Part shown: in pieces, positions 2,244-38,085 of the stretch
Numbering within the stretch: the first letter of the stretch is position 1
Layout of the letters: every line of letters starts with the position of its first letter
IMG/VR virus record: IMGVR_UViG_3300025769_000279
Coordinates: 1-40,611 of that record
DNA from: a virus
Length of the DNA stretch: 40,611 nt
Strand: one strand, 5' to 3'
Translations under genes and position numbers: made by a program
The notes under the pieces: model-generated
What the model was told of the DNA's origin: nothing
What the model saw: the letters and a program-made list of their open reading frames with translations, nothing else
Databases searched by the model: none

Positions 2244-3377
2244 ATGGCCAGCATTCGTCAGAAACCGGGCTCTCCCTATTGGTATGCCTGTCTCACGCTC
2301 CCACACGCGCGCACAGAGCGTTCCACGCGCATCAGGTGCGCCGATGGTGTCCAAGCCCGAAGACGCGCACAAGCGCTCGCTGACCTATGGGAACGCGATC
2401 TACTCGACCAGCGCGAGGCCCAACGCGCGCATGCGGTCGTCGATGAAATCATAGGCAAGTTGCACGGTGCCGGCGCCGTCCTCACCGTGCCTGCCTATCT
2501 AGATCAATGGCTAGCCGCTCGCGAGGGCGAGCTAGCACCCGGCACCTATCGAGTCTACGAAAAACGCCTGCGCGAGTTCGGTCACTCGGTCCGCACCGCT
2601 ACGCTGAGCCAACTCTCAAGTGAGCATGTGCGCAAGTTCCGCGATGATCTCGCCAAGCGCGTCGGCGTTAACACGGTCAACAAATACCTCTCAACGGTCA
2701 AGACCGTACTGCAGGACGCCGTTAGGGACGGTCATCTAGCAAGCAACCCATGCGACGCGTTGCGCCGTCTCAAGGCCAAACGCGCCGATACTAGACGCGC
2801 CTTTACGCTCGATGAGCTTCGACGCGTGCATGAGCTAGCGTCGCCCGAATGGCAAAGCATGATCCTATTTGGGCTCTACACGGGCCAGCGTCTGCAAGAC
2901 ATCGCGGCCCTCACTTGGGCCAGCCTTGATCTCGTTACACAAGAGGCACGCTTTGTGACCGGCAAAGGCAACAAGCGCATGGTCGTGCCGCTGCACCCAT
3001 GTTTAATGGATCACATCCAGGCCATGCAGACACCGAGCGACCCTAACGCGCCATTGCACCCTGACGCCTTCGCCGTCGTCGCCAAGGCTGGTCGCGTGTC
3101 CACGCTGAGCAATGCCTTTCGAGATATCCTCGCCAGCGCTGGCCTTGTCCGCACCCGCTATGTCAAAGCCAACCGGGAAGGGGACCGCCGCCAACAATCC
3201 GAGCTGAGCTTCCACTCGCTGCGCCACACGGCCACAACGCTACTCAAGCAAGCGGGCATTTCCGGCCCGGTCGTGCAAGAGCTGATTGGCCATGAGTCTG
3301 ACGCCGTCAACCGGGTCTACACTCACATCGACGCTGAAACGTTGCGCGCTGCCAACGCTTCATTGCCTCGGCTTTAA
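2244..3377 (+). CDS. int: Tyrosine-family site-specific integrase
   Basis: Protein of 377 residues, normal length for phage integrases. An N-terminal arm-binding part is followed by a SAM-like core-binding domain (about residues 80-165) and a C-terminal catalytic domain. Visible catalytic residues are the Arg in TGQRLQDI (about 215), the Lys in TGKGNKR, His and Arg in FHSLRHT (about 322) and the GHES motif. The nucleophile is the Tyr in RVYTHID (about residue 359). It would integrate and excise the phage genome at attP/attB. It is transcribed away from the 1900-2243 control region and overlaps the convergent gene at 3374 by four bases. An 18-codon copy of its 3' end lies at 3667-3720. Confidence 0.93.
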   Translation: MASIRQKPGSPYWYACLTLPHARTERSTRIRCADGVQARRRAQALADLWERDLLDQREAQRAHAVVDEIIGKLHGAGAVLTVPAYLDQWLAAREGELAPGTYRVYEKRLREFGHSVRTATLSQLSSEHVRKFRDDLAKRVGVNTVNKYLSTVKTVLQDAVRDGHLASNPCDALRRLKAKRADTRRAFTLDELRRVHELASPEWQSMILFGLYTGQRLQDIAALTWASLDLVTQEARFVTGKGNKRMVVPLHPCLMDHIQAMQTPSDPNAPLHPDAFAVVAKAGRVSTLSNAFRDILASAGLVRTRYVKANREGDRRQQSELSFHSLRHTATTLLKQAGISGPVVQELIGHESDAVNRVYTHIDAETLRAANASLPRL

Positions 3378-6432: not shown

Positions 6433-6706
6433 CGGACTTCCCCCGGTTTGCGCATTCGGTGATGCCTTCCAGCCATAACCGTTTCTGCATTTCTATAATT
6501 TCCTCGTCCGTCTTGCCCAGTGCCCGGTTGCGCCCGTAGTGCGAACAGATCGTCCGCGCGCACGGTTTCCGCACCCCCCATACCTCATAGTAAGCTTCCC
6601 ACCCCGCAAAGGTGCGGTCGCCGTACTTGTGAGGCTTTCTCCCATTCGGCGCGGTCCTGACTCTGCGCTGGTGACTGAGTCTCGCTGTCCTTTTCCGTTT
6701 TTGCAT
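6425..6706 (-). CDS. Small basic hypothetical protein
   Basis: Protein of 93 residues with a very basic N-terminus (MQKRKRTARLSHQRRVRT) and a central segment with WEAYYEVWG and a paired CARTICSHYG. It looks DNA-associated but matches no family I know. The leader is A/C-rich with no Shine-Dalgarno sequence. It is the first gene of the 6706-5350 sigma-factor group. Confidence 0.6.
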   Translation of the reverse strand: MQKRKRTARLSHQRRVRTAPNGRKPHKYGDRTFAGWEAYYEVWGVRKPCARTICSHYGRNRALGKTDEEIIEMQKRLWLEGITECANRGKSDV

Positions 6707-6870
6707 TTTGTCGTTTTTGGGTTCGTGTTTATTTAGTGAAATTGTTAGTTGCCGGCCCCCTTAGCATTTCGCATGCCATCGCAGACTTTCCGAAACGTTC
6801 CAAAGGTTGGCTTTTCAGCTCTAGGATTTCGCATCGGCGCTCAACCCCAAGCGCTATTTTTCTAGTCGAA

Positions 6871-6905
6871 GTGGTCCCCTTTTTGATTTTGCAAAAGGGG
6901 ACCAC
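6871..6905. terminator. 13-bp hairpin in the GGTCCCC array
   Basis: GTGGTCCCCTTTT (6871-6883) pairs perfectly with AAAAGGGGACCAC (6893-6905) around a 9-base loop. It could be a terminator for the leftward early operon ending at 7087, or a structural element of an origin. Confidence 0.5.
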
Positions 6906-6941
6906 CTTCCGCGCCCCTCGGCAGGTCCCCGGCAAGAGGCG

Positions 6942-7014
6942 TGGTCCCAACTGGTCCCCTTGGTCCCGTTTATCCCCTGGAAGGGGTAACGGGAAAAGGG
7001 GACCAGGGGGACCA
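6942..7014. repeat. Nested compound hairpin in the GGTCCCC array
   Basis: Four successive arms pair in order: TGGTCCC 6942-6948 with 7008-7014, TGGTCCCCTT 6952-6961 with 6996-7005, CCCGTT 6965-6970 with 6988-6993, and CCCC 6974-6977 with 6983-6986. The result is a 73-base near-continuous stem of stacked GGTCCCC units. Confidence 0.65.
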
Positions 7015-7086
7015 CCCTCGCCCTGCCTTGGGTGAACTGGTCCCCTTTTTGAAATTAACTGGTCCCCTTTTTGGGGACCACCTAGC

Positions 7087-9285
7087 CTAAAACGGCAATT
7101 CATCAGACGATTCCTCCTCTGTTTTCGGCGCTAATTCGTTAGCTACCCGGTTAATAAATTCAGCGATCTTTTCATTTTTCCGAGGTTGGCCCTTGATGCC
7201 AAATCTTGCGGCCTCGCGCCTCGATGGGAGTCTTTCATGCTCCTTATGGAAGTCTCTGATTGCTTGTAAAAACTCGTTCTCGCCCTTCTCACGGTTAAGA
7301 GAGTAGCGCGATTTTGACTTCGGCGCGGCGCTCCGATCTCGGCGCTTTGGTGCCGCTTGCTCGGTGGCTTCCTTGAGTTCCTTGATGTCCTCTGGCGTCG
7401 CGTCCTCCCAGCAAATCCCCACCTTGCCATGCTTAAAATGCCTCACCTGAGAGTCCCAGCCTAGCCGCCCTGCCCGCTTGCCTGCAATAAGCTGGTAAAG
7501 CCCTTCCGTGACCGTAGGAAGTAGCAGCATGTCAGCCCTTGCCCAGTTGGCGAGCTGAGCGCCTCCCGCGCCCAAATAGCTCGAATAGGCAAGCCCGCGC
7601 TCTTGTATGGCGTTGACACCTACCTTCGGTGTATGGTGGCAGAGCTGCCAGCCTAGCGCCAGCTCCCTGGCTAGGCGTGTCATGTCCATGGTAAACTCCA
7701 GGACTCCTCGTACATCACCAGCCACGTCGAGCCCTGAAAGCGCCTGTAGTGGGTCCAAGCACACAATGTCGGGCTTCCAACCCTTGTATCCCATGCCGAG
7801 CCTACGGGCCAAATTGAGAACGCCTACGCCCAACGTTTCGACGGTAAAGGTGCGGACGTTGCGTTGCACCTGCTCTTTCTCAGCCTCGGTCAATCCAAGG
7901 CCCTTGAAGACACCTTGCGCCATTTCGGTCAAGTCGCCGTCGTCGTTTTCGACCTGGAAAACGGCGGTCTTGAGCGGCCCGTTCGGCGTGATACCGAATG
8001 CTGGGCGACCAAGCGCCCATAAGATATGGGCTTGCGTTGAGCTGGACGATTTACCGATGCCGGTTGATCCGGTCCACATCATAGCGCCGCCACGACACAA
8101 GAATCTGTCGCCTAGCAACGTCATGGACTCGTCGATAGGGGTGCGGGCCAACTCCAAGGGCCCGCGCCCGGTCTCAAGAATGCGCTCCAGTTCGGGGTCG
8201 TTTTCCGAAAACCAGCCTTCCCAGTCGGCGCAACCCATGCGAAGCCGCACCAGGCGCTGGATGCCGTCACCCCTAGCTGCTGTAGGGCACCTAGACCAGC
8301 GCGACGGGTTGCCGACCTTGATGTCCACCCCGGTATTGTCTAGTGCCTCATAGACAAGCTGCGCGCGCTCGTCATACTCTGATCGCGTCGAGGCATCGAC
8401 CCGCACCCACGCATGGAGCCCGCGCCCCGCACTGTCGATAATGCATGAGATTGGAAGAGCGCTCTTACTGAACGTATCTAGCTGCACTTGGCGCGATATC
8501 GTATCATCGTCGATTTCCGCCAGGACGTGGCGCAATGCGGTCACGTCGGCATCCTTAGTGCCGCCCTTAGTCATCGGATTCATGCGAATGAACACGCCGC
8601 GATCCGTGCTCATCAAATCGCGTATATCACCACCGTGCTTGCGCTCCTTGCGCTCGACCAGGCGCGCTATGAGCGCGTCGCGTTCCAAGGTTACGCCGCT
8701 GGTTGGGTTCAGCTCCTCATCAGCCGATGAGAGCGAGACAAACTCGCCTTCCTCATAGGTCGATTTGAGGAAGGCAACCATACCCTCATGCCCGGCCAGC
8801 TTGTCAGGATAAAGAACGCCATCGAAAGGATCATGATCCGGCTCGCGCGTCTCGTCGCTGGCAGGCTTGGCACGACCGATGATCGGCTTCTTACGACCAG
8901 GCACGCCCGACTTGCGCCCGCATGGTTCGCGCGCCTCACTAACAACCATGCAAGAATCAATCGTCTTGCGGGCTTCTTGCTCGCTCAATCCATCGGCCAT
9001 GGCTCGCGTTTTGAGTAGGCCGCGCCATACGTCACCGACGCGCCCGCTGTCACGGCACTGGTGACATGCATTGCGCAAGGCGACGTTGCGATTGCCCTTG
9101 CCTACGCCAAACTTGAGATAGTTGACCGTGACTGGCGGCAGGTCGGGCTTGCCCTCCTCAGTGTATTCGTTGATTCGATTGACACGCCCAATGCGCGGTC
9201 GGCTCGACCGATAGCGAAAGCTTCTAGGTCGCGTCGGCTTGTTGTTCTGATCATTGTTCGGCTTATCGTTTGGTTCGTCTGGCAT
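7087..9285 (-). CDS. Primase-helicase (AEP-type primase fused to RepA-like ATPase)
   Basis: Protein of 732 residues. After a polar N-terminus comes a helical segment resembling a primase accessory domain (about 50-135). A primase-polymerase-like region follows with VLAEIDDD (about residue 253), an SAGRGLHAWV strand and a WSRCPTAAR motif. The C-terminal half is a RecA-fold ATPase with Walker A GSTGIGKSS (about 405) and an acidic Walker B in IVCLDPLQAL, like RepA/DnaB-type helicases. It should prime and unwind phage DNA. It is the last gene of the leftward early operon and abuts the GGTCCCC array. Confidence 0.75.
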   Translation of the reverse strand: MPDEPNDKPNNDQNNKPTRPRSFRYRSSRPRIGRVNRINEYTEEGKPDLPPVTVNYLKFGVGKGNRNVALRNACHQCRDSGRVGDVWRGLLKTRAMADGLSEQEARKTIDSCMVVSEAREPCGRKSGVPGRKKPIIGRAKPASDETREPDHDPFDGVLYPDKLAGHEGMVAFLKSTYEEGEFVSLSSADEELNPTSGVTLERDALIARLVERKERKHGGDIRDLMSTDRGVFIRMNPMTKGGTKDADVTALRHVLAEIDDDTISRQVQLDTFSKSALPISCIIDSAGRGLHAWVRVDASTRSEYDERAQLVYEALDNTGVDIKVGNPSRWSRCPTAARGDGIQRLVRLRMGCADWEGWFSENDPELERILETGRGPLELARTPIDESMTLLGDRFLCRGGAMMWTGSTGIGKSSSSTQAHILWALGRPAFGITPNGPLKTAVFQVENDDGDLTEMAQGVFKGLGLTEAEKEQVQRNVRTFTVETLGVGVLNLARRLGMGYKGWKPDIVCLDPLQALSGLDVAGDVRGVLEFTMDMTRLARELALGWQLCHHTPKVGVNAIQERGLAYSSYLGAGGAQLANWARADMLLLPTVTEGLYQLIAGKRAGRLGWDSQVRHFKHGKVGICWEDATPEDIKELKEATEQAAPKRRDRSAAPKSKSRYSLNREKGENEFLQAIRDFHKEHERLPSRREAARFGIKGQPRKNEKIAEFINRVANELAPKTEEESSDELPF

Positions 9286-14979: not shown

Positions 14980-15101
14980 TTGTTGGCCTCCTTCTTGGCG
15001 CGCTTCTCGGCTTTCTTGCTATCCTGCTTGCGGTTCCACTCTGCTAGCTCGGCCAGGGCCTTGTCAGCCTTGGCATTGATACCAGTGCGGAACTGGCTCA
15101 T
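14976..15101 (-). CDS. Small Lys/Ala-rich protein, 41 residues
   Basis: Short gene from ATG 15101 to the stop at 14976-14978. It opens with MSQFRTGINAKADKALAELA, and the C-terminus is a basic helix (KAEKRAKKEANK). It is coupled by four-base overlaps to genes on both sides, the main evidence that it is real. Confidence 0.6.
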   Translation of the reverse strand: MSQFRTGINAKADKALAELAEWNRKQDSKKAEKRAKKEANK

Positions 15102-15265
15102 TTGGAAGCCTCCTTCTTGGCTGGCTTTGCTGGGATCACTTCCTTGATGATCTTCGCCAACTTCTCTTCTGGTGATATGCCCTCCTTGCTCGCAATCTCG
15201 CAGAATCTAGAAAGGTCCTCCGCGGCAAGGGTTGGCGTTTCGGTGATAGTCAGTTGAATGGTCAT
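15098..15265 (-). CDS. Small hypothetical protein, first gene of the leftward early operon
   Basis: Protein of 55 residues from ATG 15265 (MTIQLTITETPTLAAEDLSR ... KEASK). It has a beta-like start and a helical, basic end. No known family. It is the first gene after the divergent control region and is coupled by ATGA to the next gene. Probably under direct control of the protein encoded at 15355. Confidence 0.6.
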   Translation of the reverse strand: MTIQLTITETPTLAAEDLSRFCEIASKEGISPEEKLAKIIKEVIPAKPAKKEASK

Positions 15266-15354
15266 GAATTAACAGATTGGTTAAGAAAATACCCAAAATG
15301 GGCAATTAACAAGTCTTTCTTTGCAAATTTCGGAAAATAGTTCACAGATTGGGT
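15266..15354. promoter_or_regulatory. Divergent early/lysogeny control region
   Basis: An AT-rich 89-bp gap between the leftward early operon and the rightward HTH gene. It contains ACAGATTGG twice (about 15272 and 15344), AATTAACA twice (about 15267 and 15304) and a small palindrome CCCAAAATGGG. These are candidate operator sites for the HTH protein. Promoters must lie here in both directions, but I cannot fix their -10 and -35 boxes with confidence. Confidence 0.5.
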
Positions 15355-15777
15355 ATGAACGATGAAGTTAAAGCGTGGCTGAAGCGATCAGGACACAGCA
15401 GACAATGGCTTGCTGATCAGTGTGGTGTCTCAATTGGCACTGTTAACAACTGGCTATCCGCGGGCCGAAAAATCACGGGCTCTCCCGCCAAGATCATTGA
15501 ACAGTTAATGAGTGGCGTGCCCGAAATTAACCCCCGACTCGATTTGAAGACATTTGAAAAGTTCCAGGCAAAAGCTCGCTCTGAAGGGAAGACGGTCGAT
15601 GAGCTGATCGCCGAGCTGATCAAGAATGCTATCAAACTCCTCATCTTCGCCGCCATCATCACCGCAGTATTCCTGACGTCAGCCGACGTCGAGAAATGGA
15701 CAGCCGAGCTTTCTAAAGTCCTTGATACTGAGCCAGTCGCAACTGAAGGCTCACGCGATATCTTCTGGGGCGAATGA
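15355..15777 (+). CDS. Membrane-anchored HTH repressor-like protein
   Basis: Protein of 140 residues from ATG 15355. Residues about 5-50 form a phage-repressor helix-turn-helix (SRQWLADQCGVSIGTVNNWL). Residues 64-90 form a helical linker (KTFEKFQAKARSEGKTVDEL). Residues 92-109 (AIKLLIFAAIITAVFLTS) form one membrane span, and a short acidic tail follows. If membrane-bound, it would be a repressor tethered to the inner membrane. It is divergent from the early operon, as expected for a lysogeny repressor. A soluble protein with a hydrophobic oligomerisation helix is the alternative. Confidence 0.7.
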   Translation: MNDEVKAWLKRSGHSRQWLADQCGVSIGTVNNWLSAGRKITGSPAKIIEQLMSGVPEINPRLDLKTFEKFQAKARSEGKTVDELIAELIKNAIKLLIFAAIITAVFLTSADVEKWTAELSKVLDTEPVATEGSRDIFWGE

Positions 15778-16518: not shown

Positions 16519-16851
16519 ATGACAACTTTCCAAGCCGCCAAAGAGATCAACGCGCAAGGCCTAGGCCTATCCTGGCCTGAATGTCTGCGCATCGCCGCCA
16601 GGTTGCGCCGTGCATTTGAGCTACGCATAGCTAGGGTGCGGGCACAGTATTTCCGCCAACGTCGCCAAGCCTTGAGAGGCGAGCGCTTTCGCTCCGCACT
16701 CCACAAAGCGGGCAAAGTATTAGAAGGCGCTCAAGCGCGCGAGGGTAGGGCAGGGTTCCCCGTGGAGTTCTGCGAGCCTCTAAGGCTTTCTGAATACCAT
16801 GACATTGTTGAGAAACCAACCGGGCACGGTTTCATGATCCACGCTTTCTAG
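16519..16851 (+). CDS. Basic hypothetical protein, converges on glycosyltransferase gene
   Basis: Protein of 110 residues, start ATG 16519 eight bases after the zinc-ribbon stop. The N-terminal 60 residues are helical and strongly basic (LRIAARLRRAFELRIARVRA), so a nucleic-acid or membrane-surface role is possible. The last 72 bases overlap the 3' end of the minus-strand glycosyltransferase-methyltransferase gene, which is unusual. Either protein end could be slightly mis-set, but the minus-strand end looks like a normal methyltransferase C-terminus. Confidence 0.5.
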   Translation: MTTFQAAKEINAQGLGLSWPECLRIAARLRRAFELRIARVRAQYFRQRRQALRGERFRSALHKAGKVLEGAQAREGRAGFPVEFCEPLRLSEYHDIVEKPTGHGFMIHAF

Positions 16852-18498
16852 TAAGTCTTTTGTTAGCTTGGCGTCATGTCTTAGCTCGGTATACTCCTCG
16901 ATGTCATGCCGCCAGTTGGCGCGCGGTCGGCAATTGATATGCCCGACGCCGCCTTGGCCGGGTTGCGCCGCTGAAAACACTAGCAGATTCTTAGTCATCC
17001 TGCCGAGATTCCTGAGCGCCGTCACCGTATCGGCCTTGTCTATGTGTTCCAGTACTTCCAGGCATATTACAATGTCAGCAACACCGCTGAAGGGCATGTG
17101 AGATTCTGTTAAATCTCTTTGGAAAACATGGCAATGATCCTTCCTAGCATCGATGTCATACCCGCAAGCGTAAATATCCAGAGCCCTCATCGCGTCGACG
17201 AAGTGACCAGGCCCGCACCCAATATCTAGCACTCGGCTAGGGCTTTGCTCCCTGATCCATGCCGCCACTTGCTCGGCTAACGGCTTCTCTTCTTCGGCCA
17301 TCCATTCGAAATTTTGACGCTCAGGATGGTGCGGAAAATTCAGCGTCAAGTGATCAAGCTCGGCTCGGCTATCATCTCGCTCATACCAACCGCCGCTTGG
17401 CTTGGCATGCATGCGTGAGGCGAGTGTGAAAAATTCCTCATATCGAGGCGCGATAGCGTCTAGACTGTAGTTTCCTTTCGCCCACTCTCGGCAGTTGCGC
17501 GGGTCGATCCTGTCAATGTTGCGCGCGGCCCAAATGAGCTGCTCAAAGCTCCGCGCTCTATACCCCGTATGGCCATGCAAAACGGTTTCAGTGAATGCCC
17601 CCCAGTCTGTACTAATGACAGGCGTTCCAGAGAGCATGGATTCGACAGCAACCCCGCCAAAAGGCTCTAGGTATTGAGACAAGCAAAAGACGCCCTTCGC
17701 GTCTCGGTATAGCTCGCGACGCTTTTCACGATTAGCAAACCCGACAACCTCAACATTGGGCGGCAAAGCCTGTGCCTTGCCTGGCCCGTAGTTATCATCT
17801 ATATAGCATCGGTTTTGACCAGCGATCAGAAAGCGCTGATTCGGCAAGGCCTCGGCTAGCTGAATCACCAAGTGAACGCCCTTGCCCTCATAGATGCGAC
17901 CAAGAAACAGGAAATAATCACCTCCTGATCGATAAGTGAAATCTTCGGTGTCGAAATAGTTAGGAATCACGCCGGTGTGCCATTCCATTCTTGCGTTAGA
18001 GCTATTCTCCAGCCCATAGTATTGGTGATAGAGCGAGTAAGACTCGAAGATTTTATAGGTCGCAAAGTGGCCTCGACTATAACCGATACCTGGCTCAACT
18101 GGTGCAAGCTCAGGGTGCGCCTGGCACACCGGCTGCCCAGCAACGCTAAAGAAGCTCAGAATGAACTCGTTAGGCCCTTTCTTGCGCTCAGCTATCGCTT
18201 TGATTGCGCCTTGCTGGTGTTCTTTGTAGGTCGCGTCGCTGAGATCAAATTGAAAGAATTTATTCTTCGTGTCGTTTGATCCATAGTCCGCATCAAAGGT
18301 CTCGCGAGAAACTACGGGAACATTCTCGGAATCAACTTCCGAATCAGGATGGCCATAGTGATAACACTTATGGCCGCGCGCCGTCGTCATCTTGATGAAT
18401 TTTAAGACTTTGGCAGTGTAAGCGCAAGCACAATAGTCTTGGCTCGTAATAGTGTGAGGAACACCTAAGCAGTGGAAGGTGAATTTCTGATTTAGCAT
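16780..18498 (-). CDS. Bifunctional glycosyltransferase (GT4) - methyltransferase
   Basis: Protein of 572 residues. The N-terminal part (about 1-370) is a GT-B glycosyltransferase: FLFLGRIYEGKGVHLVIQLA, and the GT4 motif EPFGGVAVESMLSGTPVIST (about residue 277) with both glutamates that bind the nucleotide sugar. The C-terminal part (about 400-572) is a class I SAM methyltransferase with RVLDIGCGPGHF (about 421) and VICLEVLEHI. It would transfer a sugar and methylate the product. It lies 24 bp downstream of the collagen-like fibre gene on the same strand, so the fibre is the most likely target; host surface polysaccharide or other molecules are possible. Confidence 0.85.
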   Translation of the reverse strand: MLNQKFTFHCLGVPHTITSQDYCACAYTAKVLKFIKMTTARGHKCYHYGHPDSEVDSENVPVVSRETFDADYGSNDTKNKFFQFDLSDATYKEHQQGAIKAIAERKKGPNEFILSFFSVAGQPVCQAHPELAPVEPGIGYSRGHFATYKIFESYSLYHQYYGLENSSNARMEWHTGVIPNYFDTEDFTYRSGGDYFLFLGRIYEGKGVHLVIQLAEALPNQRFLIAGQNRCYIDDNYGPGKAQALPPNVEVVGFANREKRRELYRDAKGVFCLSQYLEPFGGVAVESMLSGTPVISTDWGAFTETVLHGHTGYRARSFEQLIWAARNIDRIDPRNCREWAKGNYSLDAIAPRYEEFFTLASRMHAKPSGGWYERDDSRAELDHLTLNFPHHPERQNFEWMAEEEKPLAEQVAAWIREQSPSRVLDIGCGPGHFVDAMRALDIYACGYDIDARKDHCHVFQRDLTESHMPFSGVADIVICLEVLEHIDKADTVTALRNLGRMTKNLLVFSAAQPGQGGVGHINCRPRANWRHDIEEYTELRHDAKLTKDLLESVDHETVPGWFLNNVMVFRKP

Positions 18499-18522: not shown

Positions 18523-19860
<1,338 letters not shown>

Positions 19861-30036: not shown

Positions 30037-30492
30037 TTAGACCACAGTCGCAATGGCAAGCGCGCCGTCGCCGGTAATCGTCACGGTTTGCGTGATATTC
30101 GAGCCAACCTCGGAGGGAACGCTGACGCTAGCAACCAAGCCAGAACCAGAGTATTCCTTTTCTCCAGACGCGTTGTCGTTCGGGTAGAGCTTGACACCAA
30201 CCGTTTCGCCAGCCTTCGTCGGATCAAGGTAGGTGCTCGCGCCCTCGTCGGTTTTCTGCCAGAAAAATTCCATGTCCACGGACCAAGACTTGCCTTGGAG
30301 CGTGTTCGAATCCCAAGCGATAGACGAAGCGCTTCCACCGTCGCCGTTAGACTTCATGCAACGCGTGTTTTCCGTGTTGACGCTGCTAGATGTGTTCAAC
30401 GTCCATGATCGGAGACAAGGCACTTCTTCCGGAGTGCCGCCGCTGGTAATTTCGAGAACCCCGTCGGTTCCTTTAGTGATGCTAGTTGCCAT
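30037..30492 (-). CDS. Major tail tube protein
   Basis: Protein of 151 residues, beta-rich (VPCLRSWTLNTSSSV, MEFFWQKTDEGAS, VGSNITQTVTITGDG). It sits between the tail terminator and the chaperone, the position of gpV in lambda-like phages. The same domain recurs as the N-terminus of the protein at 34061-36058. Leader rich in AAC repeats. Confidence 0.8.
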   Translation of the reverse strand: MATSITKGTDGVLEITSGGTPEEVPCLRSWTLNTSSSVNTENTRCMKSNGDGGSASSIAWDSNTLQGKSWSVDMEFFWQKTDEGASTYLDPTKAGETVGVKLYPNDNASGEKEYSGSGLVASVSVPSEVGSNITQTVTITGDGALAIATVV

Positions 30493-30507: not shown

Positions 30508-30924
30508 TTAGTTAAGTTGTTGTGTCCAAGTGGCTAGATAAGCCTGAGTAATAATTGCTATGGTTGGAGTGCTAGGATTGATTTCCGTTTCTTGCGCGAA
30601 TAGATCGATCTGCACGCCCTCCGGCATGTTGGCGCGGTCGGCTTCAACCGCTGCCTCTAGCGCCTCGCCTAGGCCCAGGATGTGTTCTTCGGCGTCCTCA
30701 CCTAATGCTACCGTATCCGCAATAGTCACCTGGATAACTTGTTCTCGATCCGTGATCGAATCGCGCATAGAAACGCGAGAAGTTTCTTGCTTCCCGAGAT
30801 AAACCGACGCGGCGTCATCCTCGAAGATGTCAGGCTTGCCACTAGAAACCGTGCCGCTGAAATCAGCCAAGCCAGCCACAAGCGTGAGCATGCGCCCTTT
30901 GATTTGTGTGGGTATTGTTGGCAT
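30508..30924 (-). CDS. Tail terminator / gpU-like protein
   Basis: Protein of 138 residues. The order of strands and helices (MPTIPTQIKGRMLTLVAGL, REQVIQVTIADTVAL, ILGLGEALEAAV, then TPTIAIITQAYLATW) fits small tail terminator proteins. Position directly before the tail tube gene supports it. The sequence match is weak, so the role rests on gene order. Confidence 0.6.
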   Translation of the reverse strand: MPTIPTQIKGRMLTLVAGLADFSGTVSSGKPDIFEDDAASVYLGKQETSRVSMRDSITDREQVIQVTIADTVALGEDAEEHILGLGEALEAAVEADRANMPEGVQIDLFAQETEINPSTPTIAIITQAYLATWTQQLN

Positions 30925-30927
30925 TTG

Positions 30928-31239
30928 TTACGGTGCTTGGCCTTTACCGAGCGCTAGAGTTGTCACGACGCCATCCGTGCGAACGTCCAATACCGGATGG
31001 TTAAGTCCACTATATGAAACCGTATCGCCTTCGGCTGCCGCACCATCGCTCGCGGCATAGGTGAAATGGATCGCATCCACTCGATGATAGGTGGTGCGGT
31101 ATCCATCGCCTGCCTCTTGCTCCTCTTCGCCCGTGTCCCAGTAACCCAATAGGTCAATGCTGCCGCCGCCACCGCCAGGCGTAAGCGAGACGGTAACGGC
31201 GGCATCGGTAGCGAATAGAGCATTGACGGGCTCTGCCAC
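30928..31239 (-). CDS. Head-tail connector (gpFII-like position)
   Basis: Protein of 103 residues, beta-rich, with DGYRTTYHRVDAIHFTYAAS and DTVSYSGLNHPVLDVRTDG. This matches the 'd-A---G--i---g--Y-V' pattern of gpFII/Gifsy head-tail joining proteins. It lies between the capsid block and tail terminator. Confidence 0.6.
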   Translation of the reverse strand: MAEPVNALFATDAAVTVSLTPGGGGGSIDLLGYWDTGEEEQEAGDGYRTTYHRVDAIHFTYAASDGAAAEGDTVSYSGLNHPVLDVRTDGVVTTLALGKGQAP

Positions 31240-31450: not shown

Positions 31451-32845
31451 TTATGTCAGGTCGGTGATTGCGCTGAAGTTGGCAGCCTGACCCACGACAC
31501 AATCAAGATCTTGGAAGACACGGAGAACAACGCCACCCGTCGCAACCTTGGTTGCCGTGTCACGGATCAGCTCGACGCCGCCCCACATGCCAACATGGAG
31601 AGAGCTAAAGTTGCCGTAAATGATCGCTGTCTTGTCGGTGCCAACGCCGAGATTGTTCGGCACATTGTTAGAAATCTTAAAGTTTCCAACGTCGGTATCA
31701 ACCGAGCCATTGTCGCCGCGAGATCCAACAAACAGACCAGATCCGGCGTCTGTCTTGGTGGTCAAGAGAACGCGCTTTCCGTGCGTGTTGGTCAAGCCTT
31801 GCGCGCCGCTTGTGCTTGCGTTGGCGTTGGCGAGATCTTCTTCAAGGTCGAACAAGTGCTCGCGGGTCAGTGTGCCGCTGGTCGTGACAGAACCGATGCC
31901 AGAAGCATTCAGAATCCCTTCAGGCTCCCCGCCGCTGCCAGGACCATTGATCAAGGTTTGATCGATGGCGATTGCAAGGCCTTTACGAATCGAACGAGTC
32001 AAGAGGCCCTCGATGCCTGGAGTTGTGGTTTTGCCAGCCTGACGAGTGAATGGGATGCGGCCCGCTACCGTCTTGTAGCTAAGCGAAATCTTGTCCAGCG
32101 TGTAATCACCCTCGGTCGGCTCGGCATCCTCCGCAACCCAATAGAAGGCCGGGTTGGTTAATTCGCGCGGAATTTCGACATTCCCAACGAGACCAGGAAG
32201 GACGGTGACACCCATTCCCAGCACCACGGCTTCTTCGCGCAAGCTCTCGATAAACATATCATCCCGAAGCTCAGTAGCGACAATGTCAGCCGCTTCCGAG
32301 TTGCCAACGCCGACGCCTACCGTGGCGCGCTCACCATAAAGAGCCGAGCGGGTTGCCGCGTCTTGCGGAATCCAACCGCGCAAGAGCACGTCAGTGGGAA
32401 TGGCTACGCGATCATTGGAGCGGCCTTGGCTCTCTTTGATAGCGTCGGAAACTTCGAACTCATGCTCGGCACCGCGCGTGCTGCCGGTGATCAGCGCTTG
32501 AACAACGTTCGCGAGATTGTAACGCTTCCTCTCTTTCTGCGAAAGGCCGATGTCTTCGGTCGTTGTCCCGAGAGAACGCGTCTGACCCTTTTCGAGTACC
32601 ATGGCGTTAAAGTCGGCTATTGATGTCCCATCGTCGCATGCACGCTCGGCTTCTTCGGAGAAATTCCATTGTGAGCCAATGTCACGAATCTTACGTTGGC
32701 GCTCACGATCCGCTGAAACCGCATCGTTAATGGCTCGCGTATTATCGGCTTCCCGCTCAACTACAATGGTAGAGCGCTCACCGCCTGAGTTGCTAGTGTG
32801 TGTGCTCGAATCCTGAGCGTTAGAAATATCGGCTTCTTTGGCCAT
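31451..32845 (-). other. Possible internally started capsid (464 residues)
   Basis: ATG 32845 (MAKEADISN) is in frame in the fusion and preceded by a leader rich in AAC (CGAAACAACGAAACAACAAC) like those of independent genes in this phage. If used, it yields a stand-alone capsid precursor with its delta domain. Confidence 0.45.
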
Positions 32846-33505
32846 AATGCTAGTGGTTGTTGTTTCGTTGTTTCGTTTGTCGCGAAATTGTTCAATTTCT
32901 TGAAGATGGCACTTTTCGGAAGCGCTTCGGCCAAACCCCGTGTTTGGATCGGCTGGCACGGTGACGAAAGAGGCTTCCTTAGGCTCCCAGTCACTCACGC
33001 GGTAATGCTCGCCGTCCTCGGTTTCTCCCTCGAAACGCCACTGGTGAATGCGAAAACCGACGCTCACGTTGCGCAAGATCCCGGCTTCTACGTCGGCGCG
33101 CTTCTCTTGTGCTAAGGGTGACGGGCCGAATCTGACGGTCACATAAACCGAGCCGTCCCGGATTTCCGCACCCTCAATGACGCCTAGTTGTTGGTCATGA
33201 CGGTGCATCCAAAGCAACGGCGCGTTACCGGACTGTAGCCAATCCATCCGCACTTCGCCACGGTCATGACCTAGGGTTTCGTGGTAGTCAGCGAAAATAT
33301 TGACGGCGGCGTCAGTTGTTAGCCGTACCTCATACCGAGCGGGCGCTTCCTCCGCGCCATCGGACTCCTCAGACCGCAGGCGCGTGACGGCATCTTGACC
33401 GCCCGCAAATGCGCGCACGATCACGCCGCCATCCGCTTCCGGCTCCTTAGTGGGTGCGGACGCTTTACGCTCGCCCTTCTTCGGTAGTGTCTTTGGCTTA
33501 GCCAT
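31451..33505 (-). CDS. Fused prohead protease - major capsid protein (HK97 fold)
   Basis: Protein of 684 residues from MAKPKTLPKK at 33505; a further in-frame extension is discounted because it lacks protease homology. Residues about 30-205 form an S78 prohead protease with WMHRHDQQLG (catalytic His) and ILRNVSVGFR (Ser). Residues 221-684 form a delta-like helical segment and an HK97 capsid (ELTNPAFYWVAEDA, GRIPFTRQAGK, INGPGSGGEPEGILNASG). Most phages separate the two genes. The joint codes for a low-complexity RNNETTTTSIM that is also a perfect A/C-rich leader, so the capsid may also be translated alone from 32845. Confidence 0.88.
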   Translation of the reverse strand: MAKPKTLPKKGERKASAPTKEPEADGGVIVRAFAGGQDAVTRLRSEESDGAEEAPARYEVRLTTDAAVNIFADYHETLGHDRGEVRMDWLQSGNAPLLWMHRHDQQLGVIEGAEIRDGSVYVTVRFGPSPLAQEKRADVEAGILRNVSVGFRIHQWRFEGETEDGEHYRVSDWEPKEASFVTVPADPNTGFGRSASEKCHLQEIEQFRDKRNNETTTTSIMAKEADISNAQDSSTHTSNSGGERSTIVVEREADNTRAINDAVSADRERQRKIRDIGSQWNFSEEAERACDDGTSIADFNAMVLEKGQTRSLGTTTEDIGLSQKERKRYNLANVVQALITGSTRGAEHEFEVSDAIKESQGRSNDRVAIPTDVLLRGWIPQDAATRSALYGERATVGVGVGNSEAADIVATELRDDMFIESLREEAVVLGMGVTVLPGLVGNVEIPRELTNPAFYWVAEDAEPTEGDYTLDKISLSYKTVAGRIPFTRQAGKTTTPGIEGLLTRSIRKGLAIAIDQTLINGPGSGGEPEGILNASGIGSVTTSGTLTREHLFDLEEDLANANASTSGAQGLTNTHGKRVLLTTKTDAGSGLFVGSRGDNGSVDTDVGNFKISNNVPNNLGVGTDKTAIIYGNFSSLHVGMWGGVELIRDTATKVATGGVVLRVFQDLDCVVGQAANFSAITDLT

Positions 33506-33513
33506 CGACAAAT

Positions 33514-33532
33514 AGAAGCCAGCACTTTTCAA
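33514..33532 (-). repeat. Conserved leader motif, copy 2
   Basis: Minus-strand sequence TTGAAAAGTGCTGGCTTCT, eight bases before ATG 33505 of the protease-capsid gene. It differs from copy 1 by one base. Confidence 0.5.
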
Positions 33533-33542
33533 TTCCGCACCT

Positions 33543-34007
33543 CTATATATTATCAAGCTCCTGCTCAATAATGTGCCAGTCTTCCACGGTGCCGTCTTTC
33601 TTGACCACTTTGCGCCAGTGCCCGGTTTCGTCTTGGTAGTCCATGGTGAGACTCCACGAATGACCCTCAACGCTGCAATGGGTGTCGAATCGAATTCGCG
33701 TTGTTAGTGAGTCCACTTCTGCCAGCACGGACTCAGGAAATTCATGCGTCTCTTCTCGCTCGCCCGTCTCTTCGTCGGGCTCTGACCAATGAATGCGTCT
33801 CCAGAAATCAGCGTAATTGTGAGGCTGGTCAGACGGGCGAACGGTAACGTCGACAGGCGCGAACGTCTCCCCATCTGGTAGCTCGGCATGTGTAGCCAAC
33901 CCCTGGAAATAGCGGCCATAGTTGGCCAGATAGCTATCTTGTAAGAGCGTCACTTGTGGCAATAGCTCTGTGAGCCTTGCGTCTATTGCTGTTTGCTTTG
34001 TAACCAT
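33543..34007 (-). CDS. Hypothetical protein in head block
   Basis: Protein of 154 residues, no family recognised. Segments include TDLLPQV-like N-terminal helix (LTELLPQVTLLQDSYLANYG) and a polar C-terminus with WSLTMDYQDETGHWRKVV. It lies between the LamG protein and the protease-capsid gene, so a minor head protein is plausible. Confidence 0.55.
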   Translation of the reverse strand: MVTKQTAIDARLTELLPQVTLLQDSYLANYGRYFQGLATHAELPDGETFAPVDVTVRPSDQPHNYADFWRRIHWSEPDEETGEREETHEFPESVLAEVDSLTTRIRFDTHCSVEGHSWSLTMDYQDETGHWRKVVKKDGTVEDWHIIEQELDNI

Positions 34008-34060
34008 ATATTAAAAATACAACGATTCTAAACGTGCGTCGATGGCGTCTGTTTTAAGGC

Positions 34061-36058
34061 TCATGCTAAGGCAAAGTGCGCGGTTAATGCTGCTTTCTCG
34101 GTGGCGGTTAAGAGACGCCCAAAGACAATCACGGATTCAATCGTTCCCACCCAATTGGACCCCCAATTGAACCCGCTGTGTAGTGAGTTAATGCCCCCAA
34201 CGCTGAGCCCTTTCATTGCTTCCGTCGTGCCTGTCCCTTTGGCAAACACGTCCGCATCCACCTGCAAGGTAACATCCGTGCTCGTGAACGAGGCGAAGAC
34301 AAGGACACGGTCTGTGGTCGTATTTGTAGACGCGGAGAAAAGCGCGTTGCTGTAAGCTCTGTATTTACCACTTGGCACAAAGAGCAACCTGCGGAACGAG
34401 GCGTCATTGCTGTCAATAACATAGGCACCTGAAGGGGCTGCGGCATCCTTGCTGCCTACAAACACAATGGTAGAATCCCCCAAAGTCTCCCCTGAGGTTG
34501 TCTGCAAGGCATTAGAAAGACCATCATATACCAACACCCCACCTATAAACTGAGGAGCGTCCCCAGGCGCATTGATGGCGACATCCCCAAACGGGCTAGC
34601 ATCGGTCCCTTGATTCTCCCATTTCGTCACCCCTGCATATTGTGTCGCCTCATACTCCACCGGCCCGTGAGCTGCGCCAACGGTGTTATTGTCGGTTAGA
34701 TGGTTGGAGCCGTGCGAATCATATCGGGTCCCCCTAGGCTCGTTGAGGTTCCAGAAACTAACAAGATCAACTTTCTCGGAGGTTGTTAGATCTGCGTAAT
34801 TGCGAGGAGTTCCCGAATTGTAGAGGGCAGTGATTTCTGAAGATGATAGGGCTCGGCTCCAGATAGCAGTATTGGACATCTCAGCATCACAAGGGACGGT
34901 AAACCCAGAGCTGCCGGCCAATACAAAGGGACCAGATGAGTTTATGCTAGCGCCCTGTTGGGCAGGCGAGCCACTTGCCAGCCCGTTGCTAAAGGCTTCG
35001 AAACTACCGCTAGCATTGCGCCGCATGATAATATTATACCAACTCCCCAGGACGATCCCACTGACTGCTATTTGAACCCCCGCGTTGTTACTATCTACCA
35101 AACGGCAGTAGATGGTAGTGTCAACCCTAACCATTGTCAGGCCAGGAGTCGATTGATTCCCTGCCCCTTTCGCCATAATCCACTGCACGCCGCTGATAGA
35201 AAGAGGTCTAATCCAAAGGGAAATCGTAAATTCCCCAGCACCCAAATCTAACCCTGTCTGCGCCGCATCAGTGATGCTCAAATACTCACTATTAGCACTA
35301 TCGAAGCTCGCCACCAGATCCGTTTTGAACGTGCTAGGCGTGGTATCATACCACCCTTTGGCGTCACTGTAAGCATCCCAAGTAAACCAGAAGAAATTAT
35401 GATCGACCGAGCCTAGGTCGTTCGTCGCTGTGATAGTGACAGCAAGTGAGCCTTCATCGGCGTCGATGCTGCCGCTAATCATCCCGGTGTTTGGATCAAG
35501 CAACACGCCTTGAGGCAACCCGAATGAGCTATAGCTTGTCACCACGCCATTAAACCACGTGCTAGCATCGATGCTAATTGCGTCATTGACCAAATTCGCC
35601 ATATCAACTGGCGCGCTTCCCGAGACAGTTGGCTCATACCCGAAGAACAGATCGCCGTCTCCGATCAGATTGACCGTCTGCGTGATATTCACGCCGATTT
35701 CGGCAGGCTTGGACAATGACTGAATGATTGCCGACCCTTCATAGCTTGGCCCACTAGCGCCGTCAGGGAGTAGCTCAATATCAATCGTTTCGCCCGTGCG
35801 TTCTGGTGAGAATGACGGCGCGGCAGCCTCGTCGGTCTTTTGCCAATAAAACGTTAGTGATAAGCGCCAGCCGCGCCCGATGGCGACCACGCTTTCCCAT
35901 AAGCTGAAATTGTCGTCGCCATTACTCGCCATGCACCGAGTGACTTCTCGCTGTTCTGACGCCGTCGTATTCAGCTCCCAAGACGACAAGCAAGGCACTT
36001 CCGCGCCTCCTTGAAGCTTAATGATTCCCTCGTTGCCCTTTGTAATCGTGCCTGCCAT
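34061..36058 (-). CDS. Tail-tube-like domain fused to Ig-like and LamG/lectin domains
   Basis: Protein of 665 residues. Residues 1-145 align with the tail tube protein at 30037 (both have VPCL-SW-LNT, FFWQKTDE/FYWQKTDE and NITQTV-L/TI-GDG). Residues 150-240 form an Ig/cadherin-like module (LDPNTGMISGSIDADEGSLA). Residues about 245-420 form a LamG/concanavalin-like domain (FTISLWIRPLS, AIWSRALSSSEITALYNSGT). Residues about 470-665 are a second jelly-roll of the same kind. It sits between portal and protease genes, not with tail genes. It could be a decorated alternative tail subunit or a head decoration protein with a sugar-binding surface. Confidence 0.8.
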   Translation of the reverse strand: MAGTITKGNEGIIKLQGGAEVPCLSSWELNTTASEQREVTRCMASNGDDNFSLWESVVAIGRGWRLSLTFYWQKTDEAAAPSFSPERTGETIDIELLPDGASGPSYEGSAIIQSLSKPAEIGVNITQTVNLIGDGDLFFGYEPTVSGSAPVDMANLVNDAISIDASTWFNGVVTSYSSFGLPQGVLLDPNTGMISGSIDADEGSLAVTITATNDLGSVDHNFFWFTWDAYSDAKGWYDTTPSTFKTDLVASFDSANSEYLSITDAAQTGLDLGAGEFTISLWIRPLSISGVQWIMAKGAGNQSTPGLTMVRVDTTIYCRLVDSNNAGVQIAVSGIVLGSWYNIIMRRNASGSFEAFSNGLASGSPAQQGASINSSGPFVLAGSSGFTVPCDAEMSNTAIWSRALSSSEITALYNSGTPRNYADLTTSEKVDLVSFWNLNEPRGTRYDSHGSNHLTDNNTVGAAHGPVEYEATQYAGVTKWENQGTDASPFGDVAINAPGDAPQFIGGVLVYDGLSNALQTTSGETLGDSTIVFVGSKDAAAPSGAYVIDSNDASFRRLLFVPSGKYRAYSNALFSASTNTTTDRVLVFASFTSTDVTLQVDADVFAKGTGTTEAMKGLSVGGINSLHSGFNWGSNWVGTIESVIVFGRLLTATEKAALTAHFALA

Positions 36059-37534
36059 TTAGTCGTCTTGCTCGGTCTGCTGTGGTGCCGCTGGTTGTGC
36101 TTGAAAATTCAAACTAACGTCATCTCCAGCGATGTCTTGAAACTCCTTGATTTCCTCAAGGATCACTGCCGGATCTTCACCAGTCGATTCTTCGATGACC
36201 CGTTGCGGTGACGTAAAGCCCGCACCCACTGCCTGAATGTTCGCGTTTACCTCCTTGAGAGGATCGACCCATTGCCAGCCGCGCGCCGTGAAACGGTAGC
36301 AATCATCTTCTAGCAACGCTTGAAGCTTCCCAGCGTCGAGGCCGCTTTGCTCATTGAGACGTTGCACCTCAACCCATCGGTTAAACCAGATCTCTTCAAA
36401 GTGCTCGATGTAAAACGCTTGCAGCGTGCGCCAGGCATCCCGGTCGTTCAACTTAGCCTCGCGCAATGACGAATAGTTGACGCCTTCGTAATTATTGAAG
36501 ACGTGGTTATAGTTCGCGCCAACACCTGACGCGATGCCGCGCGAAATGACCTTGTGAAACTCTTCTAAGTTTGCTGGTGGAAAGTTAGGGTCAAACGTAT
36601 CCACGTCGAGGCCTGGCGGCAGCAAATCAAACATGCCGGGCTCGACTTCTTGCCGCAAGTCAGTGCCGTCATCCTCGCCAGGGTCGTCGCCTTCGTATTC
36701 ATCGTTAGGCTTATAGAATCCCATCTTCGAGGCCGCAACCCTAGCGCCTACGCAAATTGCTTCCTCGAACTTATCGAGCATCCTTGACCGCACTCCAGAA
36801 GATGCAAGCCAAGTAATCCCTCGCGTTTGTCCTGTGCGCTCGATAGCGTAAAGGTGCGTAATCTCGTCGGCAGGAACTACCTCATATTCTGGCTGATTCG
36901 TGCGCCAGCCAAAGATGCCCTCTGACGGGTGTTGTTTGAGAATGTGATAGGCAATCGGTCTGTCGTCCTCGTCAACCTCGACGCCCATCTTGACCTGATT
37001 GCCGTTAGGCAAGGTGCCGTTCACGCGCCAATCAAGACGCATTGAATCGATAAACTGAACAGCATAGCGCCACTTGTTTTTCTTAAAGCCAGGTCGATGA
37101 TGAATGATCGCCTCGCCGTCAACCGCTAGCCGCACCATCGCCATATCGCCGATGTCCTTTCGCGTCTGCTTTCCGCAAGCGCTTGGCGAGTGCTTGAGCT
37201 TTCCGGCGCGCTTCCAAGCGTCTTCCAGCGTCTTGTTAAAAGATTTATCAATGCGCCCATTCCTGGCTTTCCGGCATGCCGTCAGTTTGATACCATGCGA
37301 CCCTATTACATTAGCTTTCAGCAAGCGTAGATAGTTTCGAATGTAATCATTGTTACGCTCAAGGTCACGCGCCCGTGAAACCATTTGCACAAGTTGCGGG
37401 TAGATCGAGGCATCCGCCGAAACGTCTTGCGTATCCCAACCAACAAACGATTCGCTTGCCGCCATTTGGAAGTAGCGCTTGCCCTTCTTGCGCTGCTCAA
37501 ACTTGCCGGTTTTAATGTTGAACTTGTAACTCAT
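36059..37534 (-). CDS. Portal protein, lambda gpB-like
   Basis: Protein of 491 residues from ATG 37534 (MSYKFNIKTGK), chosen because it overlaps the upstream stop by four bases. Segments typical of lambda-type portals: ERNNDYIRNYLRLLKANVIG, VEPGMFDLLPPGLDVDTFDP, FNNYEGVNYSSLREAKLND and SPQRVIEESTGEDPAVILEE. It forms the dodecameric ring through which DNA enters the head. It follows the gpW-position gene. Confidence 0.88.
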   Translation of the reverse strand: MSYKFNIKTGKFEQRKKGKRYFQMAASESFVGWDTQDVSADASIYPQLVQMVSRARDLERNNDYIRNYLRLLKANVIGSHGIKLTACRKARNGRIDKSFNKTLEDAWKRAGKLKHSPSACGKQTRKDIGDMAMVRLAVDGEAIIHHRPGFKKNKWRYAVQFIDSMRLDWRVNGTLPNGNQVKMGVEVDEDDRPIAYHILKQHPSEGIFGWRTNQPEYEVVPADEITHLYAIERTGQTRGITWLASSGVRSRMLDKFEEAICVGARVAASKMGFYKPNDEYEGDDPGEDDGTDLRQEVEPGMFDLLPPGLDVDTFDPNFPPANLEEFHKVISRGIASGVGANYNHVFNNYEGVNYSSLREAKLNDRDAWRTLQAFYIEHFEEIWFNRWVEVQRLNEQSGLDAGKLQALLEDDCYRFTARGWQWVDPLKEVNANIQAVGAGFTSPQRVIEESTGEDPAVILEEIKEFQDIAGDDVSLNFQAQPAAPQQTEQDD

Positions 37535-38085
37535 GAAAGAACGGATTTGATGCGGCGGTAGCCTGTTTTCTTGGAGGCCAGGCCAAGCTCGGCTTTGCAA
37601 CGCTTAATTTCTCCCATGATCCAAATTCGATGGCGTCGCAATTCCGCTAGATCAAGCCATTGATATTCGCGATCTGACACGCTCGGAATCGAAATGCGGT
37701 GCGCCTTGACGCCGCCTGATTCGATCACTTTCCGAATCGCAGAATCAATACTAACAAGGTCTGCATTGAGTTGCGTTAGCTTGGCGTTGCTTGCGCCAAG
37801 CGCTTCGGTGATTACGATCCACCCCTGACACACGTCGAAGATGTCGCCGCCTTTCGCGGCCTGGATGCCGTAGGCGTAGCTTCCTGGCGTCCATGTTGCC
37901 GACGTGGCCGCCGTGACCGCGAACGCGTAATCGCTGCCATCCTCCGTCGCAACTACCGTGTATGTCTGCGAGCCGCTATTGAGGATCATGGACACGGTCC
38001 ACCCATCGCCGGTCGGGTAGTCCGTCAAATGCACGGTCCACTCGTCGCTTGTTGTGCCCGCCCGGAAGCTCGAAGGAATAGCCAT
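37531..38085 (-). CDS. gpW-position protein with N-terminal beta domain
   Basis: Protein of 184 residues. Residues 1-95 are a beta-sandwich-like domain (WTVHLTDYPTGDGWTVSMIL). The C-terminal 60 residues resemble gpW-type head-joining proteins (DREYQWLDLAELRRHRIWIM followed by GEIKRC). Such fusions are unusual; gpW is 68 residues in lambda. It sits between terminase and portal, as lambda W does. A conserved leader motif precedes it (38094-38112). Confidence 0.65.
   Translation of the reverse strand: MAIPSSFRAGTTSDEWTVHLTDYPTGDGWTVSMILNSGSQTYTVVATEDGSDYAFAVTAATSATWTPGSYAYGIQAAKGGDIFDVCQGWIVITEALGASNAKLTQLNADLVSIDSAIRKVIESGGVKAHRISIPSVSDREYQWLDLAELRRHRIWIMGEIKRCKAELGLASKKTGYRRIKSVLS

Follow-up and report, generated by a model that had tools for sequence, protein, structure and literature searches.

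A tail-tube paralog encoded beside the portal gene carries exchangeable lectin-type domains

Host attachment in phages is mostly retuned via tail-tip fibres. What, then, is a second tail-tube domain bearing lectin-type domains doing among the head genes of a virus? We examined this question for gene P0001 of the window, that is the whole 40,611-nucleotide stretch of viral DNA analysed here. An earlier note on this DNA had placed the gene at 34061-36058, had read its first 145 residues as a paralog of the tail tube protein encoded at 30037-30492, followed by an Ig-like and two LamG-type domains, and had proposed a new virion part. The coordinates are correct, and the gene lies on the minus strand, read from 36058 down to 34061. 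Its product of 665 aa (70.1 kDa, pI 4.3) is composed of a tube domain, an Ig domain and two LamG regions (LamG1 and LamG2).

In transcription order, the genes for the small terminase, the large terminase, the head-tail joining protein and the portal are followed by P0001, P0006 and a protease-major capsid protein fusion (31451..33670, minus strand). P0001 thus lies between portal and protease, as had been noted, with one small gene (P0006) intervening. The stop codon of the lambda-family portal gene (36059..37600, minus strand) directly abuts the P0001 start. After the protease-capsid gene come three small genes, one of which matches a head-tail attachment family with a score just under the cutoff, then P0002, a 124-aa gene and the tape measure. 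P0002 (30037..30492, minus strand, 151 aa) is the genuine tail tube protein, in its canonical place between the neck genes, which include those at 30508-30924 and 30928-31239, and the tape measure. P0001 thus lies outside the tube-gene position, which P0002 occupies; it is a gene of its own, located about 3.6 kb upstream, and not a frameshift product of the tube gene. The head-tail joining protein (37531-38085, PHROG 5774) has an additional beta-rich N-terminal region; the adaptor of phage R4C has been reported with an accessory Ig-like domain (PMC10276861). Elsewhere in the window, an integrase gene at 2244-3377 indicates that the virus is probably temperate. A collagen-repeat tail-tip fibre is encoded at 18523-19860, followed at 16780-18498 by a fused glycosyltransferase-methyltransferase gene. 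The non-collagen C-terminal end of this fibre is very short, a weak hint that there may be room for another adhesin.

By BLASTP, residues 1-137 of P0001 align to P0002 with 68/145 identities (47%, E 3e-40), a sequence similarity far beyond chance which upholds the proposed paralogy. We delimited the tube-fold domain to residues 1-140 (35639..36058, minus strand). In the PHROG database, phrog_1407 (major tail protein) spans residues 2-217, that is the tube and Ig domains together (E 6e-5). Structure prediction and comparison, which the earlier note had suggested, pointed the same way: the AlphaFold model of residues 1-224, of moderate quality (mean pLDDT 73, pTM 0.57), is closest to lambda gpV, whose chains make up its three best PDB matches in Foldseek (E 7e-6 to 2e-5), followed by further proteins of this fold from tubes, baseplates and necks. 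In a viral structure library, tail tube proteins were also the top matches of this model. Against the PDB, the tube profile had a single meaningful match, the major tail protein 8gtb. Sequence searches of the PDB with P0001 and P0002 gave nothing useful, the NCBIfam search gave no match, and Pfam Phage_tail_2 (PF06199) did not match P0001; even P0002 scored 23.0 against a cutoff of 23.8. The tube-fold assignment of the P0001 N-terminus stands.

Residues 141-224 (35387..35638, minus strand) form the Ig-like domain, whose best matches are gpV tube and Ig chains and in which Pfam He_PIG covers residues 149-217 (30.7 bits against a cutoff of 24). LamG1 (34829..35290, minus strand) is clear, with Laminin_G_3 (PF13385) at residues 258-409 scoring 65 bits against a curated cutoff of 27.6. 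These two parts of the domain order claimed earlier are confirmed, and the third is weaker when taken alone: the second LamG-like region (about residues 485-665; 34064..34606, minus strand) reached only 17.7 bits (E 0.004), under the same 27.6 cutoff. We provisionally assign the last ~180 residues, from their sequence, to a second LamG-type domain (LamG2). The AlphaFold model of the LamG half, built from four sequences, had a pLDDT of 33, and the profile of this half gave only chance matches against the PDB.

The SN(G/S)D motif is still present in the tube domain of P0001, as are numerous further residues conserved in tube proteins. However, the loop that carries this motif is trimmed: 4/4 portal-side tube copies are without three residues and without the GG after SN(G/S)D, all present in the aligned true tube proteins. 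A second loop, near residue 103, is also shortened by two to three residues in 4/4 portal-side copies and not in true tube proteins. In the P0001 model, the trimmed SN(G/S)D loop falls between strands 24-41 and 53-72, and we take it as the probable counterpart of the long beta2-beta3 loop of tube proteins. This loop makes the ring-to-ring contacts, and its deletion or mutation stops tube formation in T5, lambda and SPP1 (PMC5717097, PMC8718954). Since the stacking loop is shortened in all four portal-side copies, these proteins may not enter the tube itself. A motif retained but trimmed would fit a terminal or minor ring better than the bulk of the tube.

By gathering related loci with portal, tube and capsid queries, we found the tube-Ig-LamG-LamG fusion in four contigs, namely the window, L002 (65% identity to P0001), L094 and L096, all of them metagenomic. 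L096 also has an ordinary tube gene (15009-15530), so that the two-tube arrangement is directly seen twice. A fifth contig, L006, encodes a stand-alone tube domain of 168 aa (53% identity) directly after the portal, then a separate fibre-like protein of 537 aa. As the domain is stand-alone there and fused elsewhere, it behaves as a separable module. The portal stop and the start of the paralog abut directly or overlap by 1 nt in the window, L002 and L006, and the gap from portal to fusion is a few bases in L094 and L096. The phage records of the collection that we searched contained none with a tube paralog.

The portal-capsid distance is below 600 nt in 67 of the 87 related loci that hold both genes (a few of these loci being copies of the same contig), and no gene separates the two in RcCronus, R4C and Xanthomonas M29, which are isolated relatives. 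Since portal and capsid genes are adjacent or less than 600 nt apart in most relatives, a P0001-type gene is an insertion and the slot an accessory site. The more distant L008, L009, L098 and L100 have fibre-type genes in this slot, with family matches for L009 only; in L009 a small gene accompanies the fibre gene, and a similar pair is found in L100. We dropped a BppU-like assignment of the small gene in the slots of L009, L008 and L100, as its PHROG matches are to unknown-function and fibre-assembly families and a PDB search was empty. Other uses of the slot were also seen: in L151 (6516-9759) it is taken by a 548-aa protein together with an apparent tyrosine integrase, and in L091, L093 and L097 the place of the adhesin is filled by small genes that, on inspection by eye only, are lysis-type or DUF1353-like. 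Separately, L124 has two tail-tube-like genes in tandem (6590-7393).

In the phylogeny, the portal-side tube domains of the window, L002 and L006 form one clade (support 98/99 to 100/99), which groups with the window's own tube protein P0002 (83-86 / 94-95). The L094 and L096 tube domains are placed elsewhere in the tree, on a long branch; a single origin of all portal-side copies is not rejected (AU p 0.077). Between the window and L002, the tube domains retain 66% amino acid identity while identity at third codon positions has fallen to 34% (saturated), which indicates long-standing purifying selection on the tube domain.

LamG1 occurs as type A (window and L096, 81% identical) and type B (L002 and L094, 81%), with about 30% identity between types; LamG2 occurs as type X (window and L002, about 95%) and type Y (L094 and L096, 93%), with about 38% between types. 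All four combinations were found: AX in the window, BX in L002, BY in L094 and AY in L096. L094 and L096 are 96-98% identical in nucleotide sequence over 12 kb except at LamG1, where amino acid identity is 29%: the blocks flanking LamG1 are 97.6% and 96.3% identical, with a sharp drop across the domain. At 6620-7600 of L094, LamG1 is swapped for the other type relative to L096. For the window and L096, LamG1 dS is 0.19 whereas the tube and Ig domains of the same pair are saturated, indicating that LamG1 moved recently between old lineages. The linker and hinge around LamG1 are conserved in all four fusions (75-93% amino acid identity), and they are likely the crossover zones. Reading frames are open in every fusion copy.

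The LamG2 exchange has left a trace in the window. From about 34597 to 34018, the window is 93-100% identical to L002 bar one 12-nt indel, and outside this block identity falls to about 36-83%. The block ends in a recombination scar (34018..34061, minus strand) that overlaps the P0001 stop and holds the vestigial start of an L002-type partner gene (ATGAGCCTTAAAACAGACGCC...); the scar sequence MSLKTDAIDARLE, which precedes the start of P0006 and follows the stop codon of P0001, corresponds to the first 39 nt of the next gene of L002. P0006 itself (33543..34007, minus strand, 154 aa) is an acidic orphan with no family match. Its homologs lie directly after the LamG gene in the window, L002, L094 and L170, and this constant position suggests that P0006 is probably a partner of the lectin, either a chaperone or an accessory protein. 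In L170 (1-2309), the gene before the P0006 homolog encodes three LamG-type domains (one extra, one LamG1 A-like and one LamG2 Y-like); it adjoins apparent lysis genes and an integrase, has no capsid gene after it, and is truncated at its 5' end, where the contig stops.

From the tube paralogy, the domain order, the portal abutment and the module exchange, all read from the sequence, we infer that P0001 is an accessory adhesin present in the virion: through a duplicated tube subunit, lectin modules open to exchange would be fixed to the tail or neck. We give this reading a probability of roughly 55%. The diverged tube subunit and its gpV-like Ig domain would serve as the anchor, most likely built into the tube/neck stack, either as a minor ring or as a minority of its subunits. 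The Ig domain would act as a spacer from which the LamG-type domains project outward, and these domains would bind host-surface or extracellular glycans and hold the phage at the cell until the tail tip engages. Recombination at the conserved linker and hinge would then swap lectin modules among related phages and retune the stickiness of the particle. The earlier proposal of a subunit with lectin-type domains on display holds up and is strengthened by the stand-alone tube domain of L006 and by the swapped lectins, with its place in the virion still a matter of prediction.

Where P0001 would sit is the main point on which other explanations differ. A gene beside the portal could just as well encode a part of the head or collar, and gene position is a poor guide to location in the virion, since the portal-vertex fibre of TP901-1 is encoded after the baseplate genes (PMC4493119). 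P0001 might surround the portal vertex as a ring or as whiskers, with a function like that of the neck passage structure (NPS) of TP901-1 and 936 phages, and never be part of the tail tube. We consider this rather unlikely, even though the portal gene is directly abutted in three loci, a small gene with a fibre gene fills this slot in L009 (L100 has a comparable pair), neck proteins of tube-like fold are among the Foldseek matches, and NPS collars bear carbohydrate-binding domains at just that vertex (PMC6669499, PMC4493119). The N-terminus of the NPS is BppU-like, not tube-like, no sign of portal binding was seen in the P0001 sequence, and gene position does not prove the location. The estimates for this explanation and for the tail-or-neck adhesin overlap, because the latter leaves tube or neck open. 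A re-use of the tube-fold domain on the head shell, as a capsid decoration that displays lectins, is improbable. P0001 is within the head gene cluster, and the structurally solved relative R4C is without a decoration protein (PMC10276861), so such sites would be free; however, the literature searched gave no tube-fold decoration protein, and retention of the SN(G/S)D motif and many conserved residues is expected if tube-like partners are still contacted. Because the domain has kept the likeness of a functional tube protein, we favour the tube/neck stack over the capsid.

Two further explanations would remove the function or the exchange rather than relocate the protein. A mobile lectin cassette that leaves a scar behind, in a gene absent from most relatives, could be joined to a decaying duplicate in a neutral fusion with no virion role. 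This is very improbable given the long purifying selection on the tube domain (66% against 34%, window and L002) and the open frame of every copy. Alternatively, the lectin combinations could be chimeras of metagenome assembly, since the conserved linker and hinge are places where an assembler could go astray; this would take away the argument from exchange and leave the tube-lectin gene in place. We hold it to be highly unlikely as well, since the four contigs come from separate samples with their frames intact, a second, identical contig (L001) matches the window gene, and the scar in the window is not part of the repeated region.

If P0001 is an adhesin anchored on tail or neck, the tube building block has apparently been duplicated into a mount, on which lectins are swapped singly between otherwise near-identical genomes. 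The phage would then have a second adhesion system, carried by the neck or shaft, and P0001 would be a natural modular example of a tube-fold scaffold that displays domains. With the four lectin combinations, ready-made pairs are at hand to compare what each domain binds. A more specific reading, at odds well short of even, is that in some siphophages the second tube-fold gene abutting the portal is dedicated to a sole job as a docking ring for interchangeable adhesins, at the neck or the top of the tube. With the same reserve, these adhesins might be lectins fused to the ring protein, with recombination acting on single domains, or a separate fibre as in L006.

Several known systems share parts of this design. 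As in P0001, the tube fold of lambda gpV and T5 pb6 is followed by a C-terminal Ig domain, but P0001 has two extra LamG-type domains and a shorter stacking loop, and is a second copy beside a normal tube protein, encoded next to the portal. The tube subunits SPP1 gp17.1/gp17.1* and 936 TpeX show an adhesion-type domain along the tail (PMC8718954, PMC6669499); however, the extension of gp17.1* and TpeX (FN3 or carbohydrate-binding) arises by frameshift of a single tube gene, whereas P0001 is a diverged paralog gene with exchangeable lectins. The TP901-1/936 NPS has a carbohydrate-binding C-terminus and is a non-essential structure of the portal vertex (PMC4493119, PMC6669499); the C-terminus of P0001 is LamG-type and may bind carbohydrate, and its N-terminus is a tube fold and Ig domain instead of the BppU-like region and coiled coil of the NPS. 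With the Cronusvirus siphophages RcCronus (Rhodobacter) and R4C (Dinoroseobacter), the window shares a gene order of portal, capsid, neck and tube as well as a protease-capsid fusion of related sequence, and the tube-profile match 8gtb is a further likeness to this group, but their portal and capsid genes are adjacent, without the second tube domain or lectin protein that the window has between them. As gp17.1*, TpeX and the NPS already place carbohydrate-binding domains on tubes or collars, the term new virion part was too strong. The open-access literature held no description of a separate lectin-bearing tube-fold paralog beside the portal. Taken together, lectin-decorated siphophage tubes and collars are a known kind, to which a dedicated tube-fold paralog encoded next to the portal appears to add a new variant.
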